Source: Actinomycetota bacterium
GTDB lineage: Bacteria > Actinomycetota > Geothermincolia > Geothermincolales > RBG-13-55-18
Length of the DNA stretch: 64,000 bases
Assembly: GCA_014360645.1 (NCBI GenBank)
Contig: JACIXD010000005.1
Location: 1 to 64,000, forward strand
Direction of reading: 5' to 3'
Part shown: piece after piece, positions 5,964 through 13,718 of the stretch
Numbering within the stretch: the first letter of the stretch is position 1
How the letters are laid out: every line of letters begins with the position of its first letter
The notes under the pieces: model-generated
What the model was told of the DNA's origin: nothing
Databases searched by the model: none
The model's input: the letters and a program-made list of their open reading frames with translations, nothing else
Made by a program: the position numbers and the translations under genes

Positions 5964-6014
5964 TCGGCAATCAAAACCGGCCGGCAATCGGCACTTGAAA
6001 ACCGGCCACTTGAG
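5964..6014. repeat. Short direct repeats at the end of the IS21-like element
   Basis: AAAACCGGCC occurs twice within 30 bases, and CGGCAATC twice as well, just beyond the 3' end of the decayed istB. IS21-family ends carry several short internal repeats of this kind, so this may mark one terminus of the element. The opposite end was not found. Confidence 0.4.
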
Positions 6015-6027
6015 ATTCAACAACTAT

Positions 6028-6802
6028 CTACTCCTTTGTTCCCTTCTTGTCGCCTCCAACATCAAGGCCTCGGCGCTTGCGCTCATGCAAACTGTATGAT
6101 GGCCCGGTGACGGCGATGACGTCAGCATAGTGCAAAAAACGGCCAGGCAGGGGCGCCTGCTGCCACGGTGTTGTTCAGCGCCTTGCCCCAGTCCTCGATG
6201 GGCCGGTTGGTAGTCACGATGGTGGAGGCTTTCTCGTAGCGGCGGAGGAAGCCTTCCAGCAGATATTCCGCTCCGCCGGCAGGGATGGTCTTGAGTCCTG
6301 ATTCCTCCAGGAGCAGCCGGTCCACAGAGGTTAGTTCGGAGACGAGTTCGCCCCGCCCTCCGGTGGCCTAGGCTTCGGCCCTCTGGGCCACCGGGTCGAA
6401 GGTGGATTCGTGCAGCACGGTGTGTCCCGCGGCAATGGCCGATACCGCCGGCGAGATGGCGATGCGGCTCTTGCCCGCGCCCCCCGGCCCGATCAGGAGC
6501 ACCCCCCGCTTCTCTCTAACGAACCTGGCCGTGTTCAGCTTGAGCGCCAGGCGTTTGGGTATCTTGGGGTTGAAGGCGAAATCGAAGTCGGACAGGTACT
6601 TGACGCAGGGCAGCTTGGCCTTCTTCAGCCGGCGGGCGAGCCGGCGGCCCTTGCGCACCGCCGGCTCGTCTTCTACCAGCAACTCCAGGAACTCGCGTGC
6701 GCTCAAGTCTCCCTGATCCGCCTGGAGCAGGCGAGCCGGAAGGGTGGAGGCCATCCCCGAGAGCCTCAGCGCCCGCGGCCTCTTTTCAAGTCCGGCGCTC
6801 AA
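6028..6802 (-). pseudogene. istB: istB (IS21-family transposition helper ATPase), broken
   Basis: The N-terminal part (6802 down to 6371) has Walker A GPGGAGKS and the usual IstB lead-in (QADQGDLSAREFLELL). An in-frame TAG at 6368-6370 interrupts it. The same frame resumes with RLLLEESGLKTI and TIVTTNRPIEDWGKAL, IstB C-terminal motifs. A second lesion, a frameshift near 6150, follows: the next frame reads GRFLHYADVIAVTGPSYSLH and runs to a TAG at 6028-6030. It is clearly inactive. It follows istA on the same strand with a small overlap, the normal IS21 arrangement. Confidence 0.85.
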
Positions 6803-8040
6803 TCACATCCGTCTCCTTCCCTATGTCGGCAAGCGGCCGGATGATCTCGTGGGACTGGATGAGCTCCGGGCGCTGCTCACGGTCGCTGGCCTGCTCAGCC
6901 AGCTTCTTCAGGCTCTTGCAGTGGTAGACGCCTTTGTTCACGGCCAGCTTGCAGGCCCATTTCGCCGACTCCTTGCGGTGGTGACGGGTGAGCGAGAGCA
7001 TCCCCTGGATGAGCCGGTAGGAGCGGGGGCCGCGCGTCTCGATGACGCTCCTGGCCCGGGCGGCTGCCTCCGGGCCGATCCGCTCGGCTCTGGCCAGCAG
7101 GCTTCGCTCATAGGCCTCCGCCCGGGCCGGCTTGTGGGCAGGGCGATGCTCGGGGGTCGTCGGCCACCACCCCGGCCCCCTGATCTGGTGGACCGCCTCC
7201 AGGTTCTGGCCGAAGTAGGCCTTGAGCAGGCGCTCTGTGTAGCTTACCTCCACCGTTTCGGCCAGCAGGCGGGCGGGCACCGAGTAGTAGGCGTTGTTGA
7301 GCTGGATGTGTCCGTCGGGGTGCACCTTGCGGAAAGCGCACTGGAAGTATTCGAAGGCGCAGAGGGCCAGGGGCCCCAAGGCGCCCTTCTCGGCCTCCAG
7401 GGAATGGGTGATGACCTGGCGGCGGGTGGTGCCGTGGATGCGGAGTGAGGCGACGGTGCGGTTCCAGTGGGCCAGGAAGCCGTTGGCGCCGGCTAGCGAG
7501 TTGAACCGCCTGCCCTTTAGGACGTGGTCCTTGACCTAGCCGCCGTTGCGCTCCGCCTTGCCCTTCTCCTCGGCCTTGCCGGGGAGGCAGGGCACCGGGC
7601 AGAAGCCCCTGTGATTCGCGAAAGCGGCATAGACGGCGTTCATCTCCGGATCGTAGAGGCAGGCCTTGGCCACGCCCGCTTTGAGGTTGTCGAGCTTGAT
7701 CGCCCGGGGCACTCCGCCGAAGAAGCGGAAGGCGTTCTCTTGTGCTCGGATGAAGGCGAGTGCCGTCTGCGAAGAGGCCGCCTCCTGGTAGGGGTGGCGG
7801 GAGTGAGACAGCGTCATCACAATGATCCGGGGGCGATACCGTTTCCCGGTGGCCTCGTTTAAGGTCGGAGGGCCCGAGAAGAAGTCCACCTGGGCCTCTT
7901 CTCCAGGGGCTGAGTGCAGCACGTCAACCAGTTCGGGGTGCTTTTTCTTGATCTTTTTGCCCCGGCGCCTGACCGCGTCATGGCTGCCGGCGAACCCATA
8001 CTCCTCCACCCTGAAAGGAAGGCTGAGCCTTGGATAAAAT
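6786..8040 (-). pseudogene. istA: istA (IS21-family transposase), 5'-truncated with an internal stop
   Basis: DDE-type integrase-core motifs are present: AQVDFF (first Asp) and KLDNLKA (second Asp), with the third acidic position near EEKGKAERNG. An in-frame TAG at 7536-7538 interrupts the gene right after that, and the same frame then continues with the C-terminal segment (YFQCAFRKVHPDGHIQLNNA onward). Upstream, the coding similarity starts abruptly around 8040 with RLSLPFRVEEYGF, and a stop lies just beyond, so the N-terminal helix-turn-helix region is missing. The gene is non-functional. Confidence 0.85.
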
Positions 8041-8111
8041 AAAGTTGACGCTATTCATCTCGTTTCGACGTGAAATGAAAATGAGGTTTAAACTAGGGCG
8101 TTCGGGGAATA

Positions 8112-8146
8112 TTGGTTGTAAGACAAACGCCAGGTTATAATATAAT
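8112..8146 (+). promoter_or_regulatory. Promoter for the structured leader and secreted-protein gene
   Basis: TTGGTT (8112-8117) is 18 bases from TATAAT (8136-8141); a second overlapping TATAAT is at 8141-8146. Transcription would start near 8148-8153, just at the start of the structured leader. Confidence 0.5.
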
Positions 8147-8148
8147 AG

Positions 8149-8247
8149 TTTTCGGGAAGCTGTGAGCCGCGGGCGAGACCTGGTCACCTGGTCCGCGGGG
8201 AGCTAGTGGTGAAACCGGCCCGACCCTCTCGGAAGGTCGGGCCTTTT
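8149..8247 (+). ncRNA. Structured 5' leader ending in an intrinsic terminator (candidate cis-regulatory RNA)
   Basis: From the predicted transcription start the RNA can fold an outer AGCT/AGCT pairing around a CCGCGG/CCGCGG stem, then a small GGTGAAACC hairpin, then the strong terminator hairpin. Premature termination 350 bases before the coding sequence is a riboswitch- or attenuator-like layout. I compared it from memory with the conserved cores of c-di-GMP-I, c-di-GMP-II, fluoride, glycine, tetrahydrofolate and cobalamin riboswitches and found no match. It could also be a free small RNA. The class is unknown. Confidence 0.4.
8217..8247 (+). terminator. Rho-independent terminator inside the leader
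   Basis: GGCCCGACC (8217-8225) pairs perfectly with GGTCGGGCC (8235-8243) across a 9-base loop and is followed by TTTT. It lies about 350 bases upstream of the next coding region. The sequence from 8248 to 8583 holds no gene; a CTGCCT/AGGCAG hairpin nested in GATCTC/GAGATC is visible near 8530-8580. Confidence 0.75.
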
Positions 8248-8597
8248 CATAGGGCGTTGGGACGGAAAACAGAATAGGGCTTGAGGGATAACGAGCAGCT
8301 GGTACGCGAGTATACGACAGCCTGAAGGTCGCAGCCCACTCGGCGTAGATGGCGGCGACATCCACGTGTTCATCGCTTCCCTCAGACCCGGCCTTGTATT
8401 TTCCGGCTTCCGTCCCTACGCCCCGGTATGAGGACAGGTGGAGGATGGACACCGGCTGCTTGCGGATGAGCAGAACGGGCAAGGAGGTGGTCCTGGGCTG
8501 CGAAGACAAGAGGAAAGTCGGTATGCGAGATCTCTGCCTATTGACGGCATGAGGCAGGGAGTAAGTGCAAACGTGAGATCCGCGAAAGGAGGGTGAT

Positions 8598-10100
8598 ATG
8601 AGAAAGGCGATAATAGCTGTCCTGCTGACCGCACTCGCCCTCACCATGATTGTACCGGCGATGACGACGGCGGCAGATGGTTGGGACGGGTCGATTAGTT
8701 GGTCAGGTCAAGGCATGGATTCAAGCCCGAGAAGTGATTTGGTCGGTGAAGGGCCGCGCACGGAGGCCGGCTGGATACACTGGAACGTCACCCAGGCTGG
8801 GGGTGTGACTTCGGCTCAACTGGAGCTCGGCGGCTCCGGGTCCGGCACCTATTATGTGCACGCAAAACATGGTAAAACGCTTCAGTTCTTCACGCCATAT
8901 TTCGACTTGGGAGCGCTTACGGCAACCGTGTGGTACAACGGCTACCTGGGAGATAACCCGCAGTTCATAATCTCCGACTGGTGCGATCCGATTGAATCGG
9001 AAAGGCTGACTGTCACCAAGACCGTGGTCACCTCCTACATACGCACTCACTTTTGGGACATAGACAAGTCCGTCTCCACCGAAAACGGTTACACGCACGA
9101 AGGTTACCCCAAGATCTGGCTCTACGTGGACGGCAGGGGAGACGAGACCGCCACATGGACGGTGGACGTGTCTTACGAGGGCTACGAGGACAGCGGCTTC
9201 AACGTATCCGGGGAGATCACCATCAAGAACACCGGGACTCTCGACGCTGAGATTGTGGGCATTGCTGACGAATTGGCTGGCCAAGAGATTGACATCCACT
9301 GTCCGGAAGAACTACCTTTCACCCTCGCGGTAGGCGAGACCCTAACTTGCACCTACAGCGTGGACGTAGAAGGTAAGGTCGAGGGGTCCAACGTCGTGAC
9401 GGTCACCACCAAGAGAGGCAGTTATGAGGAGAAAAAGGACATCGTTTGGGGTGACCCCACCACCGAGTTCGGCAAGACCGTCACCGTCGAGGACGTGAGC
9501 GACCTCTTCGGCGAGAGGGAGCTGGGAAAGGTCACGGCTCCGAGCGGCGACACTTTCACCTACACAAAGGACTTCGCATGGGCGGATTACGGCGAAAATA
9601 GGGCTGGTGACTACACCTACGACAACACCGCCATCATCGTCGAGACGGGGCAGTCCGCGAGTGCGACCCTTAAGGTAAACGTCCAGGGATTCATCTACGA
9701 GACGGCCTACGCCAAGGGCTCATCCGCAATACCCTTCATCCCCACCTTCGCCAACTGGGGATGGACCAATCCCATCTGTAGCGGGACTTACACCTGGGAC
9801 CTCTGGGCCGGCGCCGCGAAGTGCGACACCAGCAAGGGCACGCTGGTCGGCTCGGTTACGGTGACATACCCCTCCGATGGCTGCGTAACCGTTGATTACA
9901 ACGTATCAACACCCAACATCCTCAAGGAAACCCACGTGTACGCGGGTTATGACATATTCCCCAAGGTGTTGTCGGGCAAGCGTTGGGTGTACACCGTCGC
10001 ACCGGGGCAGTACTACAATGACAGCCCGTTCAACGGCAGCCAGGTCTACGTCATAGCCCACGCGGTGGTCGGTATCCCCGACCCGAATTTTGGCCCCTGA
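8598..10100 (+). CDS. Large secreted protein with beta-sandwich repeats
   Basis: The protein has 500 residues. It starts with a clear Sec signal peptide (MRKAIIAVLLTALALTMIVP, cleavage likely after the TTAA segment). The rest is rich in Thr, Asp, Gly, Trp and Tyr, with repeating beta-strand patterns such as SGEITIKNTGTLDAEI and YDNTAIIVETGQSASATL, similar to DUF11/Ig-like adhesion modules. Only four or so cysteines are present, and there is no LPXTG motif or C-terminal membrane helix, so it is probably released or loosely attached. AAAGGAGG precedes the ATG by 5-7 bases. It follows a terminated leader and is closed by a strong terminator, so it is monocistronic. Its function is unknown. Confidence 0.75.
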   Translation: MRKAIIAVLLTALALTMIVPAMTTAADGWDGSISWSGQGMDSSPRSDLVGEGPRTEAGWIHWNVTQAGGVTSAQLELGGSGSGTYYVHAKHGKTLQFFTPYFDLGALTATVWYNGYLGDNPQFIISDWCDPIESERLTVTKTVVTSYIRTHFWDIDKSVSTENGYTHEGYPKIWLYVDGRGDETATWTVDVSYEGYEDSGFNVSGEITIKNTGTLDAEIVGIADELAGQEIDIHCPEELPFTLAVGETLTCTYSVDVEGKVEGSNVVTVTTKRGSYEEKKDIVWGDPTTEFGKTVTVEDVSDLFGERELGKVTAPSGDTFTYTKDFAWADYGENRAGDYTYDNTAIIVETGQSASATLKVNVQGFIYETAYAKGSSAIPFIPTFANWGWTNPICSGTYTWDLWAGAAKCDTSKGTLVGSVTVTYPSDGCVTVDYNVSTPNILKETHVYAGYDIFPKVLSGKRWVYTVAPGQYYNDSPFNGSQVYVIAHAVVGIPDPNFGP

Positions 10101-10328: not shown

Positions 10329-10925
10329 ATGGCCTCAAGTCGCTTTAAGGATTCCCTGATGGCTAAAGGTGATGATAATGCCACAAGAGAAACGGTCACA
10401 CAGGTAAGGGAAGAGGTCAAGCGGAGAGAGAAGGCCATCATGCAGCGCCTCATGGCTGAAGAGAGGGAGCTCTTTCTGGATAAGAACCCCGAGGACAGGG
10501 GGAACGGTTTCCAAGGGCGTACCCTACTCACCTCAGGCGGGCACATAGAGGACTTACGGGTGCCGGTATGCCTCGCCCAGGGGACAGACCACGAGGGAGG
10601 GCGAGAGATCTTGGGTTTCTGGATCATGGGGGGATCCGGAGCGAGCGCACACGCCTGGCGGGAGATATTCAGAGAGCTCAAGGAAAGAGGAGTGGAGCGC
10701 ATAGACATCGTGGTCTCCTGCGATCTCTCCTGTATCTTGGAGGCTTCGAGGTCGGTCTTTCCGGGGGCGGATCACCATTTATGCGTGGTGCACGCGGTGA
10801 GGGGCGCCAGGACCAGGGTAAGGCGTTCCGACTGCGCTGCGGTGCTTCAAGGCCTCAAGGCCATATACCGGGCCCAAGATCAAGAGGAGGCGGAGCGAGC
10901 TCTGTCCGCCTTTGCGGATACATAA
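10329..10925 (+). pseudogene. IS256/mutator-family transposase remnant
   Basis: The N-terminal part contains NGFQGRTLLTSGGHIEDLRVP, typical of IS256 transposases before the catalytic domain. The block REILGFWIMGGSGASAHAWR and FPGADHHLCVVHAVRGARTR belongs to the later catalytic region. The segment with the first catalytic Asp is missing between them, and the frame ends early at FADT with no C-terminal half. It therefore has an internal deletion and a 3' truncation and cannot encode an active enzyme. No intact inverted repeats were found. Confidence 0.75.
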
Positions 10926-11160: not shown

Positions 11161-11248
11161 TGGCGGAGGGGGCGGGATTCGAACCCGCGAGCCGTTGCCG
11201 GCCAATGGTTTTCAAGACCACCGCAATCGTCCGCTCTGCCACCCCTCC
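11161..11248 (-). tRNA. tRNA-Ser (anticodon UGA)
   Basis: On the minus strand the gene begins GGAGGGG and ends CCCCTCC-G-CCA, so the acceptor stem is fully paired and CCA is encoded. The anticodon loop CTTGAAAA has UGA as anticodon, and a long variable arm (GGCCGGCAACGGCTC region) is typical of serine tRNAs. The T arm carries the normal GGTTCGAATCC. It reads UCA-type serine codons. Three degenerate copies of its 3' part (fragments A-C) lie downstream of its 3' end. Confidence 0.95.

Positions 11249-11588: not shown

Positions 11589-13718
<2,130 letters not shown>

Follow-up and report, generated by a model that had tools for sequence, protein, structure and literature searches.

A c-di-GMP-II riboswitch leader with predicted docking hairpins for a small RNA in relatives of Candidatus Solincola

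Sortase substrates of Clostridioides difficile were reportedly the subject of work by Peltier in 2015. In the same species, the c-di-GMP-II riboswitches (RF01786) of CD2831, CD3246 and the pilin operon resemble the locus described here in aptamer class and in the control of surface proteins (accessible part of PMC11477304). C. difficile also harbours a tandem of a c-di-GMP-II aptamer and a group I ribozyme, and there, as here, a second RNA device lies behind the aptamer (according to the excerpted text of PMC9481103). A flagellar-type promoter, like the one predicted in this study, drives the sigma28-dependent small RNAs of E. coli and Campylobacter (PMC10578931 and PMC11187230, both in excerpt). 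Furthermore, c-di-GMP-bound RsiG can keep WhiG-type sigma factors inactive; a motif E(X)3S(X)2R(X)3Q(X)3D has been published for RsiG (both from the available part of PMC8325347). Both proteins are encoded in the genomes studied here, and the promoter consensus of that system, with TAAA at −35 and GCCGATAA at −10, is alike (same part of PMC8325347).

Here we analysed a stretch of 64,000 nucleotides, referred to as the window, to which all positions refer unless another locus is named. We propose, with a probability of about 0.7, that its riboswitch gene has a two-layer leader, in which a c-di-GMP-II ON switch is followed by docking hairpins for a trans-acting small RNA (sRNA) that would oppose adhesin mRNAs.

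Class and direction of the riboswitch

The covariance model RF01786 matched positions 8146-8229 (+) with 62.1 bits (E 1.9e-11), above its curated cut-off of 53.5. This region is a c-di-GMP-II riboswitch aptamer, for which ligand binding is predicted. The first-pass annotation had recognised compact stems and, ahead of a secreted protein, the layout of a transcription-terminating riboswitch or attenuator, but could not assign it to a known class. The stems lie within 8146-8229, and the match supplies the class and rules out an unknown one. When folded on its own, this region showed no gain in stability over shuffled sequences (z 0.47), and its significance therefore rests on the covariance model, not on folding energy.

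In the fold of 8146-8229, P1 is formed by 8152-8156 with 8219-8223 (+). An intrinsic terminator follows at 8217-8247 (+), with a perfect stem of 9 bp (8217-8225 with 8235-8243) and TTTT at 8244-8247, as the annotation had described; its hairpin has a z of -3.8 and was equalled in stability by 1 of 200 shuffles. The 5′ arm of the terminator holds the 3′ strand of P1, so that the two compete for 8219-8223 and P1 overlaps the expression platform. Ligand that closes P1 would block the terminator, and the device is therefore read as an ON switch. In total, we found 57 c-di-GMP-II copies in the window's own genome, which has four, and in 39 relatives, 22 of which gave matches. In all but one of these 57 copies (56), a terminator begins within the 3′ strand of the aptamer. 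The secreted surface-protein gene in the window is probably turned on by the riboswitch at high c-di-GMP.

Ahead of the aptamer, 8112-8146 (+) contains a promoter-like site, with TTGGTT at 8112-8117, TATAAT at 8136-8141 and a second TATAAT at 8141-8146. A promoter had been claimed at this place and the TATAAT box agrees with it; the −35 element TTGGTT is weak, which is why the site is missing from the list of a consensus promoter scan. The region 7900-8800 gave no group I match at E ≤ 5, so that no group I intron core was found to follow the aptamer, and neither a group I ribozyme nor any other Rfam RNA was matched in the rest of the leader. A search for a phage origin of the leader gave no match.

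The terminator ends at 8247 and the start codon lies at 8598, in agreement with the claimed distance of 350 nt. It is this 350-nt part after the terminator, passed over by the annotation, that is the unusual part of the leader; the covariance search and the comparison of homologous leaders that the annotation had recommended gave the class and exposed it. A second hairpin had been reported at 8530-8580, close to the ribosome binding site. A 9-bp hairpin does exist there (8531-8560, +; 8531-8539 with 8552-8560; z -2.3, with 5 of 200 shuffles equally stable), but relatives lend it no support, as the 22 aligned leaders showed nothing equivalent. The ribosome binding site AGGAGG (8587-8592, +) is followed by a gene for a secreted protein of 500 aa (8598-10100, +), which has an N-terminal signal-like stretch and a weak DUF7507 match below cut-off, and is without an LPxTG anchor. 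The gene is flanked by IS21-type IstA/IstB pieces (6368-8009, −) and a Mutator transposase (10329-10925, +). Further on, tRNA-Ser(UGA) (11161-11248, −) lies directly behind the seryl-tRNA synthetase gene (11589-12866, −).

A two-hairpin element in related leaders

Among the 57 c-di-GMP-II leaders, 22, chosen by eye, carry an element of two hairpins with conserved loops, GGGCAG in hairpin A and CACUCGGCGUAGAU in hairpin B. Two models were built without the window sequence, R1 from five element leaders and R3 from 20. At E ≤ 1e-5, R1 recovers 20 of the 22 element leaders; G014_C145_8196 fell short of this threshold (14.8 bits, E 0.31) and scored 20.7 bits with R3. Searched over the own genome and the 39 others, R1 gave 32 matches at E ≤ 1e-5. 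Twenty of these are leaders, all carrying c-di-GMP-II, and 12 are extra loci, one in each of 12 genomes of the family f1, which here comprises 15 genomes (G000-G014, G000 being the window's genome). A match at G015:C78 (26.4 bits) has loops that do not fit and was taken as chance.

In the 20 leaders, 9 of the 17 pairs have changed on both sides (0/500 shuffles), and 82.5% of the paired cells are filled by pairs compared to 29-56% when the alignment was slid, a comparison that leans toward the proposed structure because the alignment was fitted to it. A distance of 64-81 nt separates the start of the element from the end of the aptamer. G-U pairs occur on the leader strand at columns 4-29 in 17 of the 20 and at columns 6-27 in 15, where the other strand would have A-C. 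At the sequence level, the leader stems are thus conserved and covary in cis. The new part of these leaders would be a newly recognised docking hairpin behind the riboswitch, at which a predicted small RNA from another locus of the genome would bind.

The window holds the weakest element copy (R1 16 bits, E 0.16). R3 matches 8319-8356 with 20.3 bits; the E value was 1.4e-4 in an unfiltered search of 701 bases and 0.023 when 117 kb were searched. At the hairpin-A position (8298-8321, +) the GGGCAG loop is missing and another hairpin, GUAC-GCGA-GUAU, is found. Hairpin B (8328-8359, +) has a stem of 8328-8332 with 8355-8359 and 8334-8336 with 8351-8353, and its conserved loop at 8337-8350, CACTCGGCGTAGAT, is the predicted contact site of the sRNA. 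The genome has two exact copies of CACTCGGCGTAGAT, one being this loop and the other lying in the sRNA locus. The fold of hairpin B is weak (z -1.0).

It could be argued that the window simply has a common c-di-GMP-II ON riboswitch whose leader is long, and that hairpin B is a functionless relic of a transposon rearrangement. The loss of loop A and the weak model score would fit this, as would the flanking transposon genes (IS21 and Mutator) and the fact that no counterpart of the locus was seen among the c-di-GMP-II loci of the two genus-mates. We nevertheless consider a relic unlikely: loop B matches the own small RNA letter-perfectly over 14 nt, the 8-bp stem around it is built from other bases than in relatives, and the cofold with the sRNA (see below) beats 60 of 60 shuffles. 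Under the two-layer reading, the window copy may be a target that works through a single loop, or one that is fading.

Some c-di-GMP-II leaders of the collection showed other features. Five of them (L038, L044, L049, L059 and L073) contain a different element, consisting of the hairpin GGGGCAGCTGCCACTGCCCC and GGCACAC..GAGCCCGGYYAGGCC..GTGCACCC, in which some pairs have changed on both sides; in L049 it gave no Rfam match. Its core GAGCCCGG recurs further on in four of the five loci, and those four are located upstream of 16S rRNA. L034 has two c-di-GMP-II riboswitches, at 6001-6084 (−) and 6324-6407 (+), that precede divergent LPxTG genes, with an sRNA target in one leader only. Divergent c-di-GMP-II pairs of this kind were also found in G001, G002, G007, G012 and G014. 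In addition, a decayed leader of the window's genome (L156/L139; G000:C7:159.3-159.7 kb) has a terminator, an element-like site CGCTCGGCGTAGAT and a gene with an in-frame stop; no aptamer was detected in it.

The partner locus and its match to the leaders

The opposite strand of the extra locus would, judging from its sequence, yield an RNA of ~72 nt that ends in a terminator. The loops of this RNA are the reverse complements of the leader loops. On the sRNA strand the order is TAAAG, a GCCGAT-like box, a hairpin with the loop AUCUACGCCGAGUGAG, a terminator hairpin with the loop CCUGCCCA and a U-tract. An own promoter and an intrinsic terminator are predicted at all 12 aligned loci: TAAAG and CGA are invariant, the U-tract has TTT in each of the 12, and TAAAG is separated from the GCC of the first hairpin by 35 nt in 10 of the 11 loci measured by script and by 36 nt in the remaining one. 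The promoter pattern of WhiG/FliA regulons, TAAA-N14-16-GCCGATAA, is present at the locus, where the promoter in G000 fits TAAA-N16-GCCGATAA with 0 mismatches, and the core letters are kept in the 12 genomes. The strict pattern occurs twice in the G000 genome and a backward control also occurs twice, so that rarity alone is no evidence for the promoter; its conservation and placement count instead. In 4 of the 12 loci the sRNA stem has a G-U pair on the sRNA strand. Such strand-specific G-U pairs on both sides argue that the hairpins of the leaders form in the leader transcript, and that the RNA of the partner locus is antisense to it.

The sRNA locus lies behind a sortase gene in all 12 genomes. 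In 11 of them a c-di-GMP-I riboswitch follows beyond it on the same contig, and in G013 a contig break separates the two. In G000, the locus (C3:136067-136174, minus strand; predicted RNA start at GCCAAA) has RNase E/G and the sortase on one side and, on the other, the c-di-GMP-I riboswitch followed by a secreted protein with CAP/DUF5719; the sRNA is on the strand opposite to these neighbours. R2, a model built from the sRNA loci, scored 97-125 bits in 12 of the 15 f1 genomes; its other matches stayed below 58 bits and were mostly leaders read backwards. Among 296 genomes drawn from the phylum, only those of f1 matched at E ≤ 1e-5. The pattern of the partner locus was found in eight named contigs, all from Actinomycetota or Ca. 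Solincola, including Candidatus Solincola daggyaiensis and Ca. Solincola sediminis, a genus that NCBI places in Ca. Geothermincolia.

Each of the 12 sRNA-bearing genomes also contains one or more element leaders. In G011 a leader is present, and both the sRNA and the c-di-GMP-I riboswitch are absent from its fragmented assembly. G004 and G008 (78% and 62% complete) contain c-di-GMP-II copies and neither the element nor the sRNA. Outside the family, two related elements lie ~520 nt apart in the sister-family locus L169 (G015:C104; ~2440 and ~2960), one behind a gene and one before a secreted repeat protein, both with GGGGCAATC in loop A. c-di-GMP-II was not found in this genome, and the two elements are possibly an older form of the leader/sRNA pair.

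We then compared each leader with the sRNA of its own genome. Pairing is possible in 133 of 145 positions of loop A (92%), 252 of 283 positions of loop B (89%) and 701 of 892 positions of stems and linkers (79%). G011 was left out of these counts because its assembly has no sRNA, and the alignment puts gaps in loop B of the G000 and G003 sRNAs, which lowers their counts. Since sRNA and leaders share stem sequence too, part of the complementarity may be due to common descent. The loops have changed in step in three genomes: loop A of G003 (GGGCAUG at both loci) and loop B of G005 (GGCA/UGCC) and G009 (GGCGC/GCGCC). Loop mismatches to the own sRNA were seen in loop B of C19 (G000), loop A of G013 and loop B of G002_C91. 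When the sRNAs were permuted among genomes, the observed 365 pairs stood against a mean of 351 (p 0.013), a modest excess.

Cofolding was tested for eight leaders with 60 shuffles each. The window leader with its own sRNA gave a z of -4.2, beyond 60 of 60 shuffles. The other two element leaders of G000 gave -8.9 (C13+) and -11.6 (C19), and the leaders of four relatives -2.5 to -16.7, compared to -0.5 for a short leader that served as negative control. In each of the 22 leaders, ~90 nt or more separate the predicted contact from the ribosome binding site downstream, and the accessibility of that site showed no consistent change when the leaders were folded with the element blocked. UCACCUC tracts complementary to the ribosome site were considered as a means of sequestering it and were rejected, as folding of the 22 leaders showed no consistent effect.

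The position of the contact and the lack of a consistent folding effect upon blocking would also suit an sRNA that pairs with the leader in the same way and activates or stabilises the mRNA. We regard this sign as improbable, because the logic of WhiG and RsiG (from the available part of PMC8325347) predicts the sRNA at low c-di-GMP, when adhesins would be unwanted. Least probable of all is that the conserved hairpins act in cis, as a second aptamer or a protein-binding site, and that the extra locus is a 3′-UTR copy on the leader strand: such sites would also show conserved loops and covarying stems, and the copy does sit behind the sortase gene on the leader-type strand, but its opposite strand has a promoter at fixed spacing, a predicted start beside the hairpin and a U-tract, only that strand permits the G-U pair, and the same loop changes appear at unlinked sRNA and leader loci.

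Targets, regulators and comparison with known systems

Of the 22 target proteins, five are cut by contig ends and one ends in a run of N; these were left out. Among the 16 complete proteins, 14 have LPxTG near the C terminus, one has LAATG and the window's protein has neither. The two other target proteins of G000 are rich in SdrD B-like domains. As most targets carry LPxTG, the adjoining sortase is a plausible candidate for the anchoring enzyme.

Each of the 15 f1 genomes encodes a WhiG/FliA-type sigma factor that scores above cut-off, and 14 of them also have RsiG. The RsiG of G000 reads ESRISYQRRILHGKID, which corresponds to the published motif with H for Q. Flagellin was found in only seven of the 15 genomes, and no WhiG-type promoter was found in the ~250-300 nt before the flagellin genes of G000. 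A flagellar regulon was rejected, as the strict promoter occurs only twice genome-wide and is absent before the flagellins; we therefore claim a WhiG-type promoter and no motility regulon. Flagellin genes (L155, before 10061 and 11744; also in G001 and G005) have GTTCAAGGAAGGACGGTGATGCC upstream and no sigma28-type promoter.

In the proposed two-layer leader, the ligand-bound aptamer would keep P1 closed and block the terminator, so that transcription reaches the gene. The transcript would then expose hairpins complementary to the two loops of the ~72-nt sRNA encoded beside the sortase gene. WhiG would drive this sRNA from its flagellar/WhiG-type promoter, with RsiG-c-di-GMP restraining WhiG. 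Since c-di-GMP can restrain WhiG via RsiG, it would turn the riboswitch on and the sRNA off, and the feed-forward loop thus formed would be coherent. At falling c-di-GMP levels, the sRNA would kiss the leader loops, spread into a long duplex and silence the mRNA that is still present. Decay of the mRNA or a block of elongation is the probable route, in preference to masking of the ribosome binding site. We infer from these features that the sRNA is transcribed and pairs with the leaders in the cell. Repression is the favoured sign, and the mechanism of the sRNA is the least certain step. For the complete three-part circuit, with the riboswitch turned on, WhiG turned off by RsiG-c-di-GMP, and a WhiG-dependent, Hfq-independent sRNA that forms two simultaneous kissing loops at a near-fixed distance behind the riboswitch, we see even odds.

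If true, an uncultured family of Actinomycetota would have riboswitch leaders equipped with a module dedicated to the docking of a trans-acting sRNA, and the circuit would unite three readouts of c-di-GMP (riboswitch, anti-sigma factor and sRNA) in the control of sortase-anchored adhesins. In the portions of the open-access literature covered, no such combination was found. The prediction is precise, as it names the exact loops, the exact partner and natural variants changed in step (G003, G005 and G009).

Compared to the c-di-GMP-II riboswitches of C. difficile, those described here belong to relatives of Ca. Solincola (Ca. Geothermincolia), and 22 of 57 have an sRNA target downstream. In contrast to the ribozyme tandem, there is no ribozyme at E ≤ 5 behind the window aptamer, and the second device would answer to a predicted RNA in trans. 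The sigma28-dependent sRNAs differ in lineage; here Hfq was not found in any of the 20 genomes searched (0/20), the contact would be made by a double stem-loop, and the targets are riboswitch leaders. Finally, the output of the RsiG-WhiG switch would here include a predicted sRNA, and the RsiG of the window's genome departs from the motif by its H for Q.
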